NCBI GenBank assembly: GCA_016931855.1
Contig: JAFGDZ010000042.1
Location: 1 to 64,000 of the forward strand
Length of the DNA: 64,000 nt
Origin: Bacteroidales bacterium
Lineage (GTDB): Bacteria > Bacteroidota > Bacteroidia > Bacteroidales > Tenuifilaceae
Reading direction: 5' to 3'
Part shown: positions 56,984-63,743 of the stretch, one piece after another
Position numbering within the stretch: position 1 is the first letter of the stretch
Layout: every line of letters begins with the position of its first letter
Made by a program: the position numbers and the translations under genes
Notes under the pieces: generated by a model
Told to the model about the DNA's origin: nothing
The model's input: only the letters and a program-made list of their open reading frames with translations
Databases searched by the model: none

Positions 56984-58753
56984 CTATTTAAAGGTTACGC
57001 TAATTTCGTTTTCCCAGTTGGCTCTAATGTTAATTTCGCCTTTGGTTTTGGGGTCGGTAAAGAACACAACTCGCTCTGGTTGAATACCTTTAATGTACCA
57101 TCCTGTATCCCAAAGTCCATTGCTGTTGGTATCCTCAATAACTTTTATCCTATATTTTCCTGGGCTTAGGTAGGTAAAGGTTATTTTTTCGTTGGCTACG
57201 CCCTTTTGCTCGGCTACAAGCTTCTTACTGGAGTCGTAAAGCTGCGCAATAACAGGCTTGTTGGTTCCAGTAACTGTTAAAAAGATAATGCCGTAATTCT
57301 CGGGGTTAGCACCCTTAAATCCAAAGGAAATGGTGTCGTTTTCCAGCCCATCAAGGCCAATAAATGCTCCAGGAAGCATCTCTATGCTGTACCTTTTATC
57401 GGTTTCCCAATTATGGTTAAGGTGGTAAAGCCTTGGATTTAGCGAATCCATTAGAAGGGTGTAGTTCTCGATGTTGGTGCTATCGCTAATATCCTTTAGG
57501 GTAATAAAATCCTTATTGATATTGGCAAGCGGTATGTTGAAATCGATGTCGAAAGGTTTTTCAATAATTGCATCGCCATTCTTTTTAACGCTAGTTGTAA
57601 TTTTAAGCGTTTCCTTCTTTATAACCTCTTCTTCATCAGAACCTAAGCCAAATAGGCCTTTTTTGCCCTCGTTTGCGCTTTTTGATTTTGGGGTGAACCT
57701 AAGCTTAAGGGTATCGGTTTGTCCTCTTAGCACACCTAGGCTATCGGTTTTTAGGTAGGATAGTTGCACAGAAATGGTATCAAATTTAGATATGGCAGCG
57801 TCGGTTATCCAATAGTCTATGGTATCCTTTCCTGCCGTAACATACTCTTTAATAAACCAGCTATTATTGTGCTTTATGTACAGTGGTTTTAGAATAATGT
57901 TCCCCTCCACTGTTTTGTTAAACGATAGGCGGAACTTGTGCGTTGATTCCCTTTTATAGTCGGCTAACACCTGTTTTTGGCTCTTCTCGTTAAAGGCGTT
58001 AAGGGTTATGGAGAAGGTCATTTTTGTTTTCACGGTATCGTTAAGCGTAACAGGGGTTAGGCTACTCGATTTTACTATAGAATCGGAGAAGGCAATGGTT
58101 TCCGATTCCTGATCGAACAGGTAGTTTGAGTTATCATCCTTAAGGGCAAAAATTTTGTAATCCTTTGCTGCTATGTTATAAAAGGTAAACTCCCCATTCT
58201 TGTTGGTTCGGGCAATTTGCGATGGCCTTGATTTAAACGGGATAGAGTCGGAGTGGTTAGCGTACAAATGAACCATTATACCCTCAATTGGCTCAAGCGA
58301 AAGCGCGTTAATAACGGTTCCGGCAAAAGCCATTGTATCCAGCTTACTTCCTGTTGAGAATGGGTAAACAAATCGTTTAAGGGGGTTACCCTCATTATTA
58401 TCAACAATGGAGTTACCAAAATACACGGAGTATGTGGTGTTCTCAAGCAGGGTATCCTTTAGCGTAATTTCAACCGACTTGCCCTTAATCCTTGTTTCTG
58501 GATTGTTTTTAAGCGGAGGAGAAACCAAAAATTCCTTTTGCTGATCCTTTAGCTTAACATACTCGTTAAAGGTGAGCACAATTTTTTCTGCTTTAAAATT
58601 GGTGGAGTATATAGCAGGGTTGCTTTTAAGCATAACGGGAGCAAGCGTGTCCTTAGGTCCACCTGTTGGCGAAACTACTTTTGCGCATTGGGAAAGAGAC
58701 ATAATTACAGCCGATGCTGCAAGCAGTACAAGTACAGTTCTTTTCAAGTTCAT
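56984..58753 (-). CDS. Ig-like domain lipoprotein
   Basis: This 589-residue protein is a predicted lipoprotein (LSQCAK, Cys at residue 23) with an N-terminal SbsA-type Ig-like domain (about 35-130, TLAPVMLKSNPAIYS... followed by LTFNEYV) and further Ig-like and carboxypeptidase-regulatory-like regions. Bacteroidota often have such a protein of unknown role. It starts the operon of small envelope genes. A -7 box is found upstream on this strand. Confidence 0.82.
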   Translation of the reverse strand: MNLKRTVLVLLAASAVIMSLSQCAKVVSPTGGPKDTLAPVMLKSNPAIYSTNFKAEKIVLTFNEYVKLKDQQKEFLVSPPLKNNPETRIKGKSVEITLKDTLLENTTYSVYFGNSIVDNNEGNPLKRFVYPFSTGSKLDTMAFAGTVINALSLEPIEGIMVHLYANHSDSIPFKSRPSQIARTNKNGEFTFYNIAAKDYKIFALKDDNSNYLFDQESETIAFSDSIVKSSSLTPVTLNDTVKTKMTFSITLNAFNEKSQKQVLADYKRESTHKFRLSFNKTVEGNIILKPLYIKHNNSWFIKEYVTAGKDTIDYWITDAAISKFDTISVQLSYLKTDSLGVLRGQTDTLKLRFTPKSKSANEGKKGLFGLGSDEEEVIKKETLKITTSVKKNGDAIIEKPFDIDFNIPLANINKDFITLKDISDSTNIENYTLLMDSLNPRLYHLNHNWETDKRYSIEMLPGAFIGLDGLENDTISFGFKGANPENYGIIFLTVTGTNKPVIAQLYDSSKKLVAEQKGVANEKITFTYLSPGKYRIKVIEDTNSNGLWDTGWYIKGIQPERVVFFTDPKTKGEINIRANWENEISVTFK

Positions 58754-58998: not shown

Positions 58999-59029
58999 TT
59001 TCGCAAACAGATAATTGCCATTACCTTTG
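58999..59029 (+). promoter_or_regulatory. Promoter of the DUF1874 gene
   Basis: TTTC at 58999-59002 is followed after 19 bases by TACCTTTG at 59022-59029. The same TTTC-19-TACCTTTG arrangement precedes trhP (360-390). Confidence 0.55.
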
Positions 59030-59046: not shown

Positions 59047-59382
59047 ATGGAGCAGCGTGCACTTCCCATTGGACTTTTTAACGGAACGGTTGCAACCACA
59101 AACGGGCTTTACCGTATTTCGGATATTAGCTTTGATAGCGCCAGTGAGCTTGTGCGCCAGCATGGCTTTGTTTCGGCAGTTGGGCACGATGCTGCTGCAG
59201 AGCTCATGTCCAGCAGGCTTGGTGTGCCTGTTCCCATGAACAGGATTCAGTTTAAGCAGCAAGTGGGCCAGCTGGCCATTGCGCTAAAGCTTAACCAGCG
59301 ACCCAACGAGGGGGCTATACTAACCTGCGAGCAAATGGAAAGCATTGGCTATACTTTTAAACTTGTTGAACGAATAGAGTGA
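59047..59382 (+). CDS. DUF1874 protein, related to YddF and AcrIII-1/Crn2 ring nucleases
   Basis: This 111-residue protein has the DUF1874 pattern: a beta-strand start (LPIGLFNGTVATTNGLYRI), SAVGHDAAAELMSSRLG, VPMNRIQFKQQVGQLAI, KLNQRPNEGAIL and GYTFKLVER. The family includes phage and archaeal virus anti-CRISPR AcrIII-1 and bacterial Crn2, which degrade cyclic tetra-adenylate, and YddF of the mobile element ICEBs1. His47, Arg85 and Glu88 sit at the positions I recall as catalytic in SIRV1 gp29. Catalysis here is an inference. It has a promoter; its stop codon overlaps the ribosome binding site of the antiporter gene (GAGGAG), so they are probably co-translated. No CRISPR gene is in the window. 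Confidence 0.82.
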   Translation: MEQRALPIGLFNGTVATTNGLYRISDISFDSASELVRQHGFVSAVGHDAAAELMSSRLGVPVPMNRIQFKQQVGQLAIALKLNQRPNEGAILTCEQMESIGYTFKLVERIE

Positions 59383-59389
59383 GGAGATT

Positions 59390-60355
59390 ATGCTTATTGA
59401 TGTTTTGTACCTAGTTATAGGTTTAGTGGCTTTGGTTTTTGGTGCAACTTGGCTGGTTGATGGTGCCTCGAGTCTGGCCAAAAAGGCAGGAATTTCTACC
59501 CTAACCATTGGGTTAACTGTTGTGGCGTTTGGTACCTCAATGCCCGAGATGGTGGTTAACCTTCTAGCATCGGCATCGGGAAGTACGGAGCTGGCCATTG
59601 GTAATGTGGTAGGTAGCAACACCCTTAACATCTTCCTAATTGTGGGTATCGCCGCAATTATTAAACCTATTAATGTGCAGCGCAAATCGGTACTGGTTGA
59701 GATTCCCTTTAGCCTTTTGGCTGCGGTGGTGCTTTTCTTTATGGCCAACGATTTGCTTATTGATGGTGCTTCGCAGTCTGTAATATCCCGTTCCGATGGG
59801 TTGGTGCTCTTTTCGTTCTTTGCTATCTTCTTGTACTATAACTTTCTAACGGCAAAGAGTGGTGGTGCACCAGAGGAGGATATCACCATAAAGCACATTA
59901 AGCCCTGGCTAGCAGTAGCTATGGTTTTTGTGGGAATATTCTTACTATTTATTGGTGGAAAATTTATTGTTGATGGCGGCTCGTCGCTTGCACGTACGCT
60001 TGGTGTTAGCGAGTCGCTAATTGGCTTAACGGTTGTGGCTATAGGCACATCGCTACCAGAACTGGCAACATCGGCAATGGCGGCCTATAGGGGGAACTCC
60101 GATATTGCCATTGGTAACGTTGTGGGCTCTAATATCTTCAACATCTTTCTAATACTGGGAACATCATCGTTAGTAAGGCCTTTGCCATTCTACAGTAACT
60201 CCAATGTTGATATTCTGGTTACCTGTTTGGCTAGTATCCTGCTATTCTCGTTTGTGCTTATTGGCCCAGGTAGGCGTATTGATAGGCGCGAGGGTGTGCT
60301 TTTTGTTTCTCTTTACCTTATTTATACCACATACCTTGTTGTTTACGTTGGCTAA
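59390..60355 (+). CDS. Ca2+/Na+ antiporter (YrbG-like, CaCA family)
   Basis: This 321-residue inner-membrane exchanger has ten helices in two inverted repeats, each with the alpha-repeat: GTSMPEMVVNLLASASGSTE (about 45-65) and GTSLPELATSAMAAYRGNSD (about 218-238), then GNVVGSN. It exports calcium in exchange for sodium or protons. Length is standard. A clear Shine-Dalgarno GAGGAG overlaps the stop of the DUF1874 gene. Confidence 0.95.
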   Translation: MLIDVLYLVIGLVALVFGATWLVDGASSLAKKAGISTLTIGLTVVAFGTSMPEMVVNLLASASGSTELAIGNVVGSNTLNIFLIVGIAAIIKPINVQRKSVLVEIPFSLLAAVVLFFMANDLLIDGASQSVISRSDGLVLFSFFAIFLYYNFLTAKSGGAPEEDITIKHIKPWLAVAMVFVGIFLLFIGGKFIVDGGSSLARTLGVSESLIGLTVVAIGTSLPELATSAMAAYRGNSDIAIGNVVGSNIFNIFLILGTSSLVRPLPFYSNSNVDILVTCLASILLFSFVLIGPGRRIDRREGVLFVSLYLIYTTYLVVYVG

Positions 60356-60397: not shown

Positions 60398-60898
60398 ATG
60401 GACAGTCAACACGAAAAGTTTTATAATAGCCTCTCCTACTACTGGGTTAAAAACTTGGTGGGATCGGGTGCTACTTTTTCTATAAACATGGTTCTTACCA
60501 TTACCTTTGGAATAGCCTACTCGTTTAAGCTACTTCCATCGGTTTACATACTACTTGTGCTGGGTGTTGTTACCCCTTTGCTATTCACCTTTTTGGTTTA
60601 CAGCCTTATGCGCGAGAGCAACGGAACCATACTTGGCCAAGCTATGCCAAAGGTTTTTGCATCGCGCAACAGCAACTGGCTTTTTATGGTGCTAGATCTT
60701 GGTATTGTGCTGCTGCTTGCGGCGCTTATCTACTTCAATATTCTTAACTACTGGCTTTTCCGCTTTTTGCAAACCCTATTTTTCCCGTTAATGATGCTCT
60801 TCTTCTTAAGGCTGTTATACATCAATAGCGAGATTAACAGAATTGGTGGTAAGATTGAAGAGAAGCTAAAGAACGACGAAACCGAGCAAAACCAGTAA
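60398..60898 (+). CDS. Four-helix membrane protein, function unknown
   Basis: This 166-residue protein has four predicted transmembrane helices (approximately residues 20-42, 47-68, 95-115 and 118-137) and a charged C-terminal tail. No family motif is recognised. The ATG at 60398 is preferred over a TTG four codons upstream at 60386. It lies 42 bases after the antiporter gene and 58 before the AsmA gene, so it may be in a transcript with either. It could be a partner of one of them. Confidence 0.75.
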   Translation: MDSQHEKFYNSLSYYWVKNLVGSGATFSINMVLTITFGIAYSFKLLPSVYILLVLGVVTPLLFTFLVYSLMRESNGTILGQAMPKVFASRNSNWLFMVLDLGIVLLLAALIYFNILNYWLFRFLQTLFFPLMMLFFLRLLYINSEINRIGGKIEEKLKNDETEQNQ

Positions 60899-60956: not shown

Positions 60957-63743
60957 ATGAAAAAGATTGTTAAGAGATTACTGCTGGTACTAGCCATTTT
61001 GCTGGTACTTGTTATTGCTGCGGCAATAATTATCCCCATAGTGTTTAAGCCACAGCTTATGGAGCTGGCTAAAACAGAGATTAATAAGAGCGTAAAAGCT
61101 AAGGTAGAGTTTACCGATTTTCAGGTATCGCTATTCAAGGGCTTCCCCGACCTTTACATTGGCCTTAAGGGCTTAAAGGTTACTGGTGTTGATGCCTTTG
61201 AGGGTGAAACCCTTGTTGCTTTTGATGAGTTCAGCGTTAAGGTTGACCTCATGAGCGTTTTGGGGATGAAGAACATCCAGATTAAATCTATCCTACTGGA
61301 TAACCCTGTAATGAACGCCCGCATTAACGAGCTGGGACAGGCCAACTGGGATATCGCTTACCCATCGGAGGAGGTTGAGGAAGAGGAGGTTGATACCACT
61401 GCTACCGACCTATCCATGCGCGTTGCGCTTAAAAAGTTCCAGATTATTAACGCTCAGCTTGCCTATACCGACGACTCCTCTAAAATGGGCGCTACCATTA
61501 AGGGGCTTAACTTTTTCCTTGCTGGCGATATGGGGCTCGATTATACTGAGCTGGAGGTAAAAACGGGAATCGATGCGCTATCCTTTACCATGGATGGTAT
61601 GCGCTATGTAAAGGATGCCAAGCTTGGCTTCAACGCTAAGGTTGGTGCCGATTTGGCCAACGGCGTTTACACCCTTAACAATAACGAGTTTACCCTTAAC
61701 GATATTCTCCTAGCTTTTAGCGGTGTAATTAAAATGCCAAAGGATGATATTGATATCGATTTAACCTTTGCCACTGGCAAAACCGACTTTAAGTCGTTAC
61801 TATCAATGGTTCCAGCCATTTACATGACCGATTTTAAGGAGCTGCAAACAGCAGGTAAGCTTAAGCTTGATGGTTACGTTAAGGGGGTAGTATCGGAAAC
61901 CACGCTGCCCAACGTTGGGCTCGACTTGGTGGTTGAGAACGCCATGTTCCGCTACCCTGCCCTACCCAAATCGGTTGACAATATCAACATCGATACAAAG
62001 GTGCTGTTTGATGGAACCAATCAGGATAACACCACTGTTGATGTAAACCGCTTTGCGCTTAACCTTGGTGGAAACCCCTTTGCTGCAGAGGTTCATGTTA
62101 AAACCCCAATGAGCGACATGGAGGTTAACGGTTTTGTTAATGGCAAAATCGACTTTAACACCCTGGCCGATGTGGTGCCAATGGATAGCATCACCTTAAA
62201 GGGTATTCTTGATGCCAACCTTAAGTTTGGCGGCCGCTTATCATACATTGAGAGTGAGCAGTACGAGAAGTTCCTTGCCGATGGTAAGCTTGCCCTAGCT
62301 GGCTTTGTGTTTAACAGCCCCGATTTGCCAAAGGAGCTGCAAATATCGGAAACCCAGCTGGTTTTTAGCCCTAAGTTTGTGGAGCTATCAACCTTTAAGG
62401 CAAGCATGGGTAAAACCGATTTCAGCATGGCTGGGCGGTTAGAGAACTTTATTCCCTTTGCCCTAAGCGATGGAATTCTTAGGGGTAACCTAACCCTTGC
62501 ATCTAACCTTATTGATGCCAACGAGATTATGTCTGGCGTTCCAACCGATACCACCACTGTGGTTGAGGAAGATACAACGGCAATGTCGCTAATTGAGGTG
62601 CCAAATAATATTGATTTCAACCTAAAGGTTGACCTTAAAAAGGTTTACTACGATAAGCTTGATATTGCCAACATTGCTGGTAAGGTGCGCGTTGCCGAGG
62701 GGCGTGTAATAATGGATAAGCTGGGCATGGAGCTGCTACAGGGCTCAATGGTAATGACCGGAGAGTACAGCACAGCTGATATCAAAGAGCCAAAGGCCGC
62801 CTTCAATTTAGATATCACCGATTTTGATATACCAACAACCTTCGGCTCATTCTCGTCAATTGAGAAGATGGCGCCAGCCGCTAAAAACCTCTCTGGCAAA
62901 ATATCAACCAAGTTCGATTTAACCACACTTATTGATACCACCATGAGCCCCGTGCTTAGCTCCATTAACGCACAGGGACGATTCCAGTCCAAAACCATTG
63001 CCATAAACGACTCTCCTACCTTTGGTAAAATTGCCGACGCCCTTAAAAACGATAAGCTGCGCAATCCATCGCTAAAGGATGTGAACACAACGTTTAGCAT
63101 AAGGGATGGCAGAATTTATATCGACCCATTCGATACTGATATTGCTGGAATCAAAACCAACTTTGGCGGCGATATGGGCATGGACCAAACCCTTAACTAC
63201 GATGTTAAAATGGCTGTACCCACCGCCATGCTTGGCAAGGGTGCCGATTTAATATCGGGGCTAGCTGCGTTGGCATCGTCAAAGGGTGTTAAGGTTGAGG
63301 AGCCCAAGCAAATTAACGTTAAGCTTAAGGTTGTGGGAACCGTTACTAAGCCTGAGGTTAAGATGGATTTTGGCGATTCTAAGCAGAGCGCAAAGGAATC
63401 GACCAAAGAGGTTGTAAAAGAGCAGGCAAAGGATGAGGCCAAGAAAAAGGCTAGCGAGCAGGCTCAGAAGCTTATTGCCGATGCCGAGGTTGAGGCGGAA
63501 AAGGTGAGAGCCGAAGCGGCAGTACTTGCCGATAAAATCCGTAAGGAGGCCGAGGCTAATGCGACTAAGCTTGAGAACGAGGCTAAAAACCAGAATCCGC
63601 TGGCCAAAGCAGCGGCCAAAAAAGCAGCCGATAAGCTGCGCAAGGAGGGTGAAGCCTCTGCGCAAAAGGTTATTAAAGAGGCCGATGTAAAGGCGCAAGC
63701 CATTATTGACAAGGCAAAGGCCGAAGCTGCTAAGCTAGAGTAG
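60957..63743 (+). CDS. Large AsmA family protein with helical repeat tail
   Basis: This 928-residue protein has an N-terminal signal anchor (about 7-30), an AsmA N-terminal domain (about 35-160, including KAKVEFTDFQVSLFKGFPD), a long series of beta-strand repeats and an AsmA_2-like C-terminal region (about 540-790). After residue 800 the sequence becomes a Lys/Glu/Ala-rich helix that repeats EAEKVRAEAAVLADKIRKEA-like heptads and Lys-Ala-Glu blocks. That tail resembles coiled-coil stator proteins such as ATP synthase b and would extend far from the membrane. It likely forms an envelope bridge. It ends at a terminator. Confidence 0.85.
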   Translation: MKKIVKRLLLVLAILLVLVIAAAIIIPIVFKPQLMELAKTEINKSVKAKVEFTDFQVSLFKGFPDLYIGLKGLKVTGVDAFEGETLVAFDEFSVKVDLMSVLGMKNIQIKSILLDNPVMNARINELGQANWDIAYPSEEVEEEEVDTTATDLSMRVALKKFQIINAQLAYTDDSSKMGATIKGLNFFLAGDMGLDYTELEVKTGIDALSFTMDGMRYVKDAKLGFNAKVGADLANGVYTLNNNEFTLNDILLAFSGVIKMPKDDIDIDLTFATGKTDFKSLLSMVPAIYMTDFKELQTAGKLKLDGYVKGVVSETTLPNVGLDLVVENAMFRYPALPKSVDNINIDTKVLFDGTNQDNTTVDVNRFALNLGGNPFAAEVHVKTPMSDMEVNGFVNGKIDFNTLADVVPMDSITLKGILDANLKFGGRLSYIESEQYEKFLADGKLALAGFVFNSPDLPKELQISETQLVFSPKFVELSTFKASMGKTDFSMAGRLENFIPFALSDGILRGNLTLASNLIDANEIMSGVPTDTTTVVEEDTTAMSLIEVPNNIDFNLKVDLKKVYYDKLDIANIAGKVRVAEGRVIMDKLGMELLQGSMVMTGEYSTADIKEPKAAFNLDITDFDIPTTFGSFSSIEKMAPAAKNLSGKISTKFDLTTLIDTTMSPVLSSINAQGRFQSKTIAINDSPTFGKIADALKNDKLRNPSLKDVNTTFSIRDGRIYIDPFDTDIAGIKTNFGGDMGMDQTLNYDVKMAVPTAMLGKGADLISGLAALASSKGVKVEEPKQINVKLKVVGTVTKPEVKMDFGDSKQSAKESTKEVVKEQAKDEAKKKASEQAQKLIADAEVEAEKVRAEAAVLADKIRKEAEANATKLENEAKNQNPLAKAAAKKAADKLRKEGEASAQKVIKEADVKAQAIIDKAKAEAAKLE

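Follow-up and report, generated by a model that had tools for sequence, protein, structure and literature searches.

The 64,000-nucleotide stretch of Bacteroidales DNA analysed here (the window) contains, at 59047-59382 on the forward strand, an open reading frame running from ATG to TGA that encodes a 111-residue DUF1874 protein. The reading that best accounts for the data, to which we assign a probability of roughly 0.55, is that this is a stand-alone, inherited chromosomal gene with an intact catalytic set, whose product is a putative ring nuclease guarding the cell against incoming or intermittent cyclic tetra-adenylate (cA4). Ring nucleases are generally seen either as switching type III CRISPR signalling off or, when virus-encoded, as blocking it. 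That a genome without a type III system should keep an intact, inherited copy would suggest either a standing guard against visiting CRISPR signals or the presence of cA4-like molecules from an unnamed source.

Membership of the DUF1874 family and the intact catalytic set are well supported by profile searches and alignment. The Pfam model PF08960 (STIV_B116-like, DUF1874) matches the window protein far beyond chance (E value of 8.5e-30, 103.3 bits against a cut-off of 26), and PHROG 5063 also matches it. The PADLOC model ‘Csx16’ matches the protein as well (3e-18), and automatic defence annotation could thus mislabel DUF1874 genes as Csx16; Csx16 and Crn2 are separate families in the literature. 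A phmmer comparison with solved DUF1874 structures retrieved AFV3-109 (8.7e-18), Csx1-Crn2, STIV B116, SIRV1 gp29 (2x4i) and 6scf. In the alignment with SIRV1 ORF114/gp29 (2x4i) residues 34-99 of the viral protein pair with residues 34-99 of the window protein with zero gaps, and hence His47, Arg85 and Glu88 are identical residues bearing identical numbers in the two proteins, as a sequence-only reading of this DNA had proposed. The His/Arg/Glu set also aligns with Crn2, the second protein that this reading named for alignment, and is present in every stand-alone homologue, the catalytic His, equivalent to His47 of gp29, being located in a GH motif. An AlphaFold2 model built from four sequences (pLDDT 74, pTM 0.66, residues 1-11 poor) gave as its top Foldseek matches 2j6b (AFV3-109), 2j85, 6scf (AcrIII-1) and 8y7g (Csx1-Crn2 H495A with cA4), all at a probability of 1.00, and the window protein is predicted to have the AcrIII-1 fold.

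The pocket of the AFV3-109 dimer is lined or flanked by His45, Glu86 (from the other subunit), Arg64, Arg83, Asn6 and Thr48 (PMC1796864), which correspond in the alignment to His47, Glu88, Arg66, Arg85, Asn12 and position 50, respectively, of the window protein. The first five residues are kept, and the pocket Thr is replaced by Ala50. The H47A mutation makes SIRV1 gp29 inactive (PMC7213978), His47 of that protein is described as the likely general acid (PMC12830947), and H495A makes Crn2 inactive (PMC7293037). Judging from the characterised relatives, a DUF1874 dimer would cradle cA4, a ribose 2'-OH would attack the phosphodiester in a metal-free cut, and His47 would serve as the general acid, with A2>P and A2-P as the products. 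It is in this way that we infer the activity, substrate and biological use of the window protein, for which the clearing of cyclic oligoadenylate is plausible. The likeliest use would be defensive: the protein would shield the cell from cA4 produced by type III systems that plasmids or phages bring in, or that are gained and lost within the species. Position 50 is Thr (in one instance Ser) in 18 of the 21 proteins compared, while Ala occurs only in the window protein and two Bacteroidales homologues; Thr at this position is common in the family without being essential or truly defining. The Crn2 domain of M. piezophila has Val at the equivalent position in the alignment, and this enzyme is active, displaying fast cleavage of cA4 (PMC7293037). 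Ala50 therefore need not abolish activity, which weakens the substitution as a candidate cause of activity loss.

The two Bacteroidales homologues (G105 and G208, both from family f80) are 61-63% identical to the window protein, and the nearest other relatives are encoded in four Clostridia chromosomes (Defluviitalea phaphyphila and three more; 56-59% identity). Any DUF1874 match was found in just 6 of 391 Clostridia genomes sampled. The Clostridia copies lie between host genes that are different in every genome, a common neighbour being sought and not found, and one copy adjoins a transposase gene. In D. phaphyphila (L004:2434-3434) the DUF1874 gene comes after the gene of a CZB (chemoreceptor-zinc-binding) protein, and a thioredoxin-reductase-like gene faces it. 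Chromosomal homologues in C. beijerinckii and A. metalliredigens were already noted in 2007 (PMC1796864); within the open literature that names the family, as distinct from subscription papers, no discussion of the chromosomal group was found. Phage and plasmid DUF1874 proteins are at most 53% identical to the window protein. In a tree that left two long rows out, the seven chromosomal proteins appear to group on one side of a branch, apart from the phage copies, although the support is not strong (75/93, 76% of bootstrap trees). All seven have Asn-Gly at positions 12-13; the other proteins compared have Asn-Ser or Asn-Thr, position 13 being Ser or Thr in the proteins sampled from phages and viruses and in those linked to CRISPR. 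A scan of IMG/VR with the window protein itself returned no match, and a profile scan returned three, with 42-49% identity across the best-matching segment; a recent phage source was rejected on these results.

Individual phage and plasmid copies display features of their own. One DUF1874 gene, located in a phage-like stretch of a different Bacteroidota genome (G782; L006:1447-1794 and L091:7284-7631, both on the minus strand), encodes, as read by eye, IGYPDV at the catalytic GH motif and Lys near the Arg85 position, and its product is possibly a non-cutting binder. In Vibrio phage Rostov 7 (L044:602-928) the annotated DUF1874 coding sequence (761-928) takes in just the latter half of the open frame; the match extends from 608, and the annotated start looks too late. 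A YddF/Crn2 gene (L110:4016-4333) is also present on the Vibrio aerogenes plasmid pLMG19650, as part of a type III-B CRISPR locus; its product has Leu in place of Glu at the Glu88 column, where the alignment is uncertain. Hoikkala et al. recorded Crn2 in just seven type III loci and AcrIII-1 in 36 phage genomes, and inferred a viral origin (PMC12409355). It is conceivable, if doubtful, that the chromosomal Asn-Gly branch of Bacteroidales and Clostridia comprises domesticated viral ring nucleases with a non-CRISPR cellular role on cyclic or 3'-terminal oligoadenylate.

The window genome (G000; 4.08 Mb, 82 contigs, 98.1% complete) contains a single DUF1874 gene. Profile searches of this genome revealed no match to RAMP (PF03787) or to the Cas10 palm (PF22335, a model that also matches in E. 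coli, so that positives need care), and the CD-NTase search, made with the SMODS cyclase family (PF18144) alone, was likewise negative. Among the other genes of the window, a PADLOC scan returned just generic TPR, phospholipase-like and weak matches. The chromosomal setting with no visible CRISPR locus, previously noted for the window, is thus supported genome-wide for RAMP, Cas10-palm and SMODS. RAMP gave no match in six of the seven genomes of the stand-alone chromosomal group, the window genome included; the exception, D. phaphyphila, has type III genes on three contigs other than the one carrying DUF1874. These searches also count against a guard against cA4, as no source of the molecule was found in the window genome by the RAMP, Cas10-palm and SMODS models, and, of the six further genomes in the group, five lack RAMP. 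Ala50 in the three Bacteroidales proteins, Gly13 throughout the chromosomal group and the absence of the gene from 26 genomes of the window family (f1) weigh in the same direction.

The main rival explanation proposes that the same His/Arg/Glu site acts on a changed substrate, either a linear molecule (3'-terminal oligoadenylate or the end of an RNA) or a non-CRISPR cyclic nucleotide. Even without cA4, the Crn2 domain of M. piezophila shortens RNA from the 3' end by means of the same His (PMC7293037), which, together with the lack of type III genes in most of the branch as judged by RAMP, the Asn-Gly pair shared across it and Ala50 in the pocket of its Bacteroidales members, is consistent with such a shift. 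The retention of the full catalytic set, however, argues against a changed substrate, as does the fast cA4 cleavage that Val at the Thr50 position still permits in M. piezophila Crn2, and the grouping of the branch reaches just 75/93. A changed substrate is thus a possible but tentative account, and a ring nuclease acting on cA4 is the reading preferred here.

The distribution of the gene in Bacteroidales is patchy. A close DUF1874 match turned up in one of the 60 nearest genomes, the 26 family-f1 genomes besides that of the window all lacking it, and in three of 393 genomes of the order, where the other two are G105 and G208; the PF08960 model matched in 2 of 395 genomes sampled in the phylum. 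The absence from the 26 relatives shows that the gene is dispensable. An RpoB tree joins f80 to f1 as its sister family (100/99), a split with which the DUF1874 tree agrees (Bacteroidales clade 97/92, f80 pair 99/93). In the window the DUF1874 gene is followed on the same strand by genes for a 321-residue calcium/sodium antiporter (PF01699, TIGR00367; 59390-60355), an orphan multi-pass membrane protein of 166 residues without a Pfam or NCBIfam match (60398-60898), and a 928-residue AsmA-family protein (60957-63743) at the end of a gene block conserved in f1. It is preceded by a divergent gene on the minus strand (56984-58753) for a 589-residue Ig-like (Big_5/DUF2141) protein.

Synteny was compared in ten family-f1 genomes that lack DUF1874 and in the two f80 genomes that have it. 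Five of the f1 loci (G004, G006, G007, G013 and G017) contain the antiporter gene followed by that of the membrane protein, and the other five (G002, G003, G010, G016 and G019) have the membrane-protein gene without the antiporter. The divergent gene is directly upstream in nine of these ten loci (in G007 it does not appear in the stretch read), facing the antiporter or membrane-protein gene with no DUF1874 between. Each f80 genome has, next after DUF1874, a homologue of the membrane-protein gene (37% and 32% identity to that of the window). A location upstream of this gene is therefore common to the sister families, for which one gain and several losses is a simpler history than two independent insertions; gene number suggests odds of roughly one in a thousand that a second insertion would by coincidence land beside this gene. 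The orphan membrane protein itself is encoded in f80 and, within family f1, in 23 of 27 genomes, and in none of 72 other genomes sampled in the order. An obligate partnership with DUF1874 was rejected for it, as it is kept in 22 of the 26 other f1 genomes, which lack DUF1874.

The window genes encode core functions (GidA, NadA, a PheS-like tRNA synthetase, RuvB, UvrC and IspD among them), with no conspicuous phage or transfer gene in the list of families matched by the neighbours. The GC3 of the DUF1874 gene (0.505) is inside the range of its neighbours (0.445-0.533). A dN/dS of ∼0.07-0.15 between the homologues, with dS saturated, indicates that non-synonymous substitutions are much less frequent than synonymous ones. 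The shared membrane-protein neighbour, the congruent tree, the ordinary composition and the setting among core genes favour long inheritance of a chromosomal gene over a recent mobile remnant. The sequence-only reading had considered a remnant of a mobile element, as with YddF in ICEBs1, which would here be carried without function; the prevalence of the family in phages, its presence on plasmids and conjugative elements, its patchiness in the order and the transposase beside one Clostridia copy would all fit such an origin. This explanation is nevertheless improbable, given that every key residue is intact, the position is one shared with the sister family amid core genes, the composition is ordinary and dN/dS low, and the IMG/VR scan with the window protein itself gave no match.

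The antiporter ATG, at 59390, is exactly 7 bases past the DUF1874 stop, as had been described previously, and the two genes are perhaps co-transcribed. The octamer TACCTTTG at 59022-59029 on the forward strand, 17 nt before the DUF1874 ATG, fits TAnnTTTG, the Bacteroidota promoter -7 consensus. A similar motif is found 20 nt before the DUF1874 homologue in G208; the match in the window is by itself no proof of function. The spacer GGAGATT (59383-59389, forward strand) contains a Shine-Dalgarno-like GGAG that can serve the antiporter start only, whereas ACGGTT precedes the start of DUF1874, and the proposal of a shared ribosome-binding region is therefore not borne out. A functional pair, in which DUF1874 controls calcium/sodium exchange or is controlled with it, would account for the short gap and probable co-transcription. 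The pairing is, however, seen in the window genome only: the antiporter occupies the same place without DUF1874 in five f1 loci and is missing from five more, none is present within the 12-17 kb read around DUF1874 in either f80 genome, and none is directly beside the Clostridia copies. A functional pair is thus very improbable, the neighbour common to f1 and f80 being the membrane-protein gene, and the antiporter, judged to lie outside any ring-nuclease function, is best viewed as a bystander. The earlier sequence-only interpretation is therefore supported for the family, the residue set and the chromosomal, non-CRISPR setting, but not for the antiporter coupling or the mobile remnant.

The putative ring nuclease can be compared with the characterised members of its family. 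It resembles AcrIII-1 (SIRV1 gp29, AFV3-109, phage THSA-485A) in its PF08960 fold, the gp29 numbering of His47, Arg85 and Glu88, the pocket Asn and Arg66. It differs in being encoded at an inherited site in a cellular chromosome, and not by a virus or provirus, and in having Gly13 and Ala50 where AcrIII-1 has Ser or Thr; its ring-nuclease activity is putative. With Crn2, as in M. piezophila Csx1-Crn2, it shares the family, the catalytic residues and the Foldseek match to 8y7g, but a type III CRISPR locus is part of the definition of Crn2, and the window genome yielded no type III gene. The names AcrIII-1, which is viral, and Crn2, which belongs to a CRISPR locus, both fail for the window protein on context. 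The YddF family (B. subtilis ICEBs1) is likewise related and has a bacterial host; in contrast, identity to the B. velezensis plasmid homologue is only ∼31%, and no conjugation or integration genes were seen around the window gene. A parallel in setting is provided by the chromosomal DUF1874 proteins of Clostridia, which share the N-G motif and stand alone among host genes, although these copies retain Thr50 and have different neighbours in every genome.
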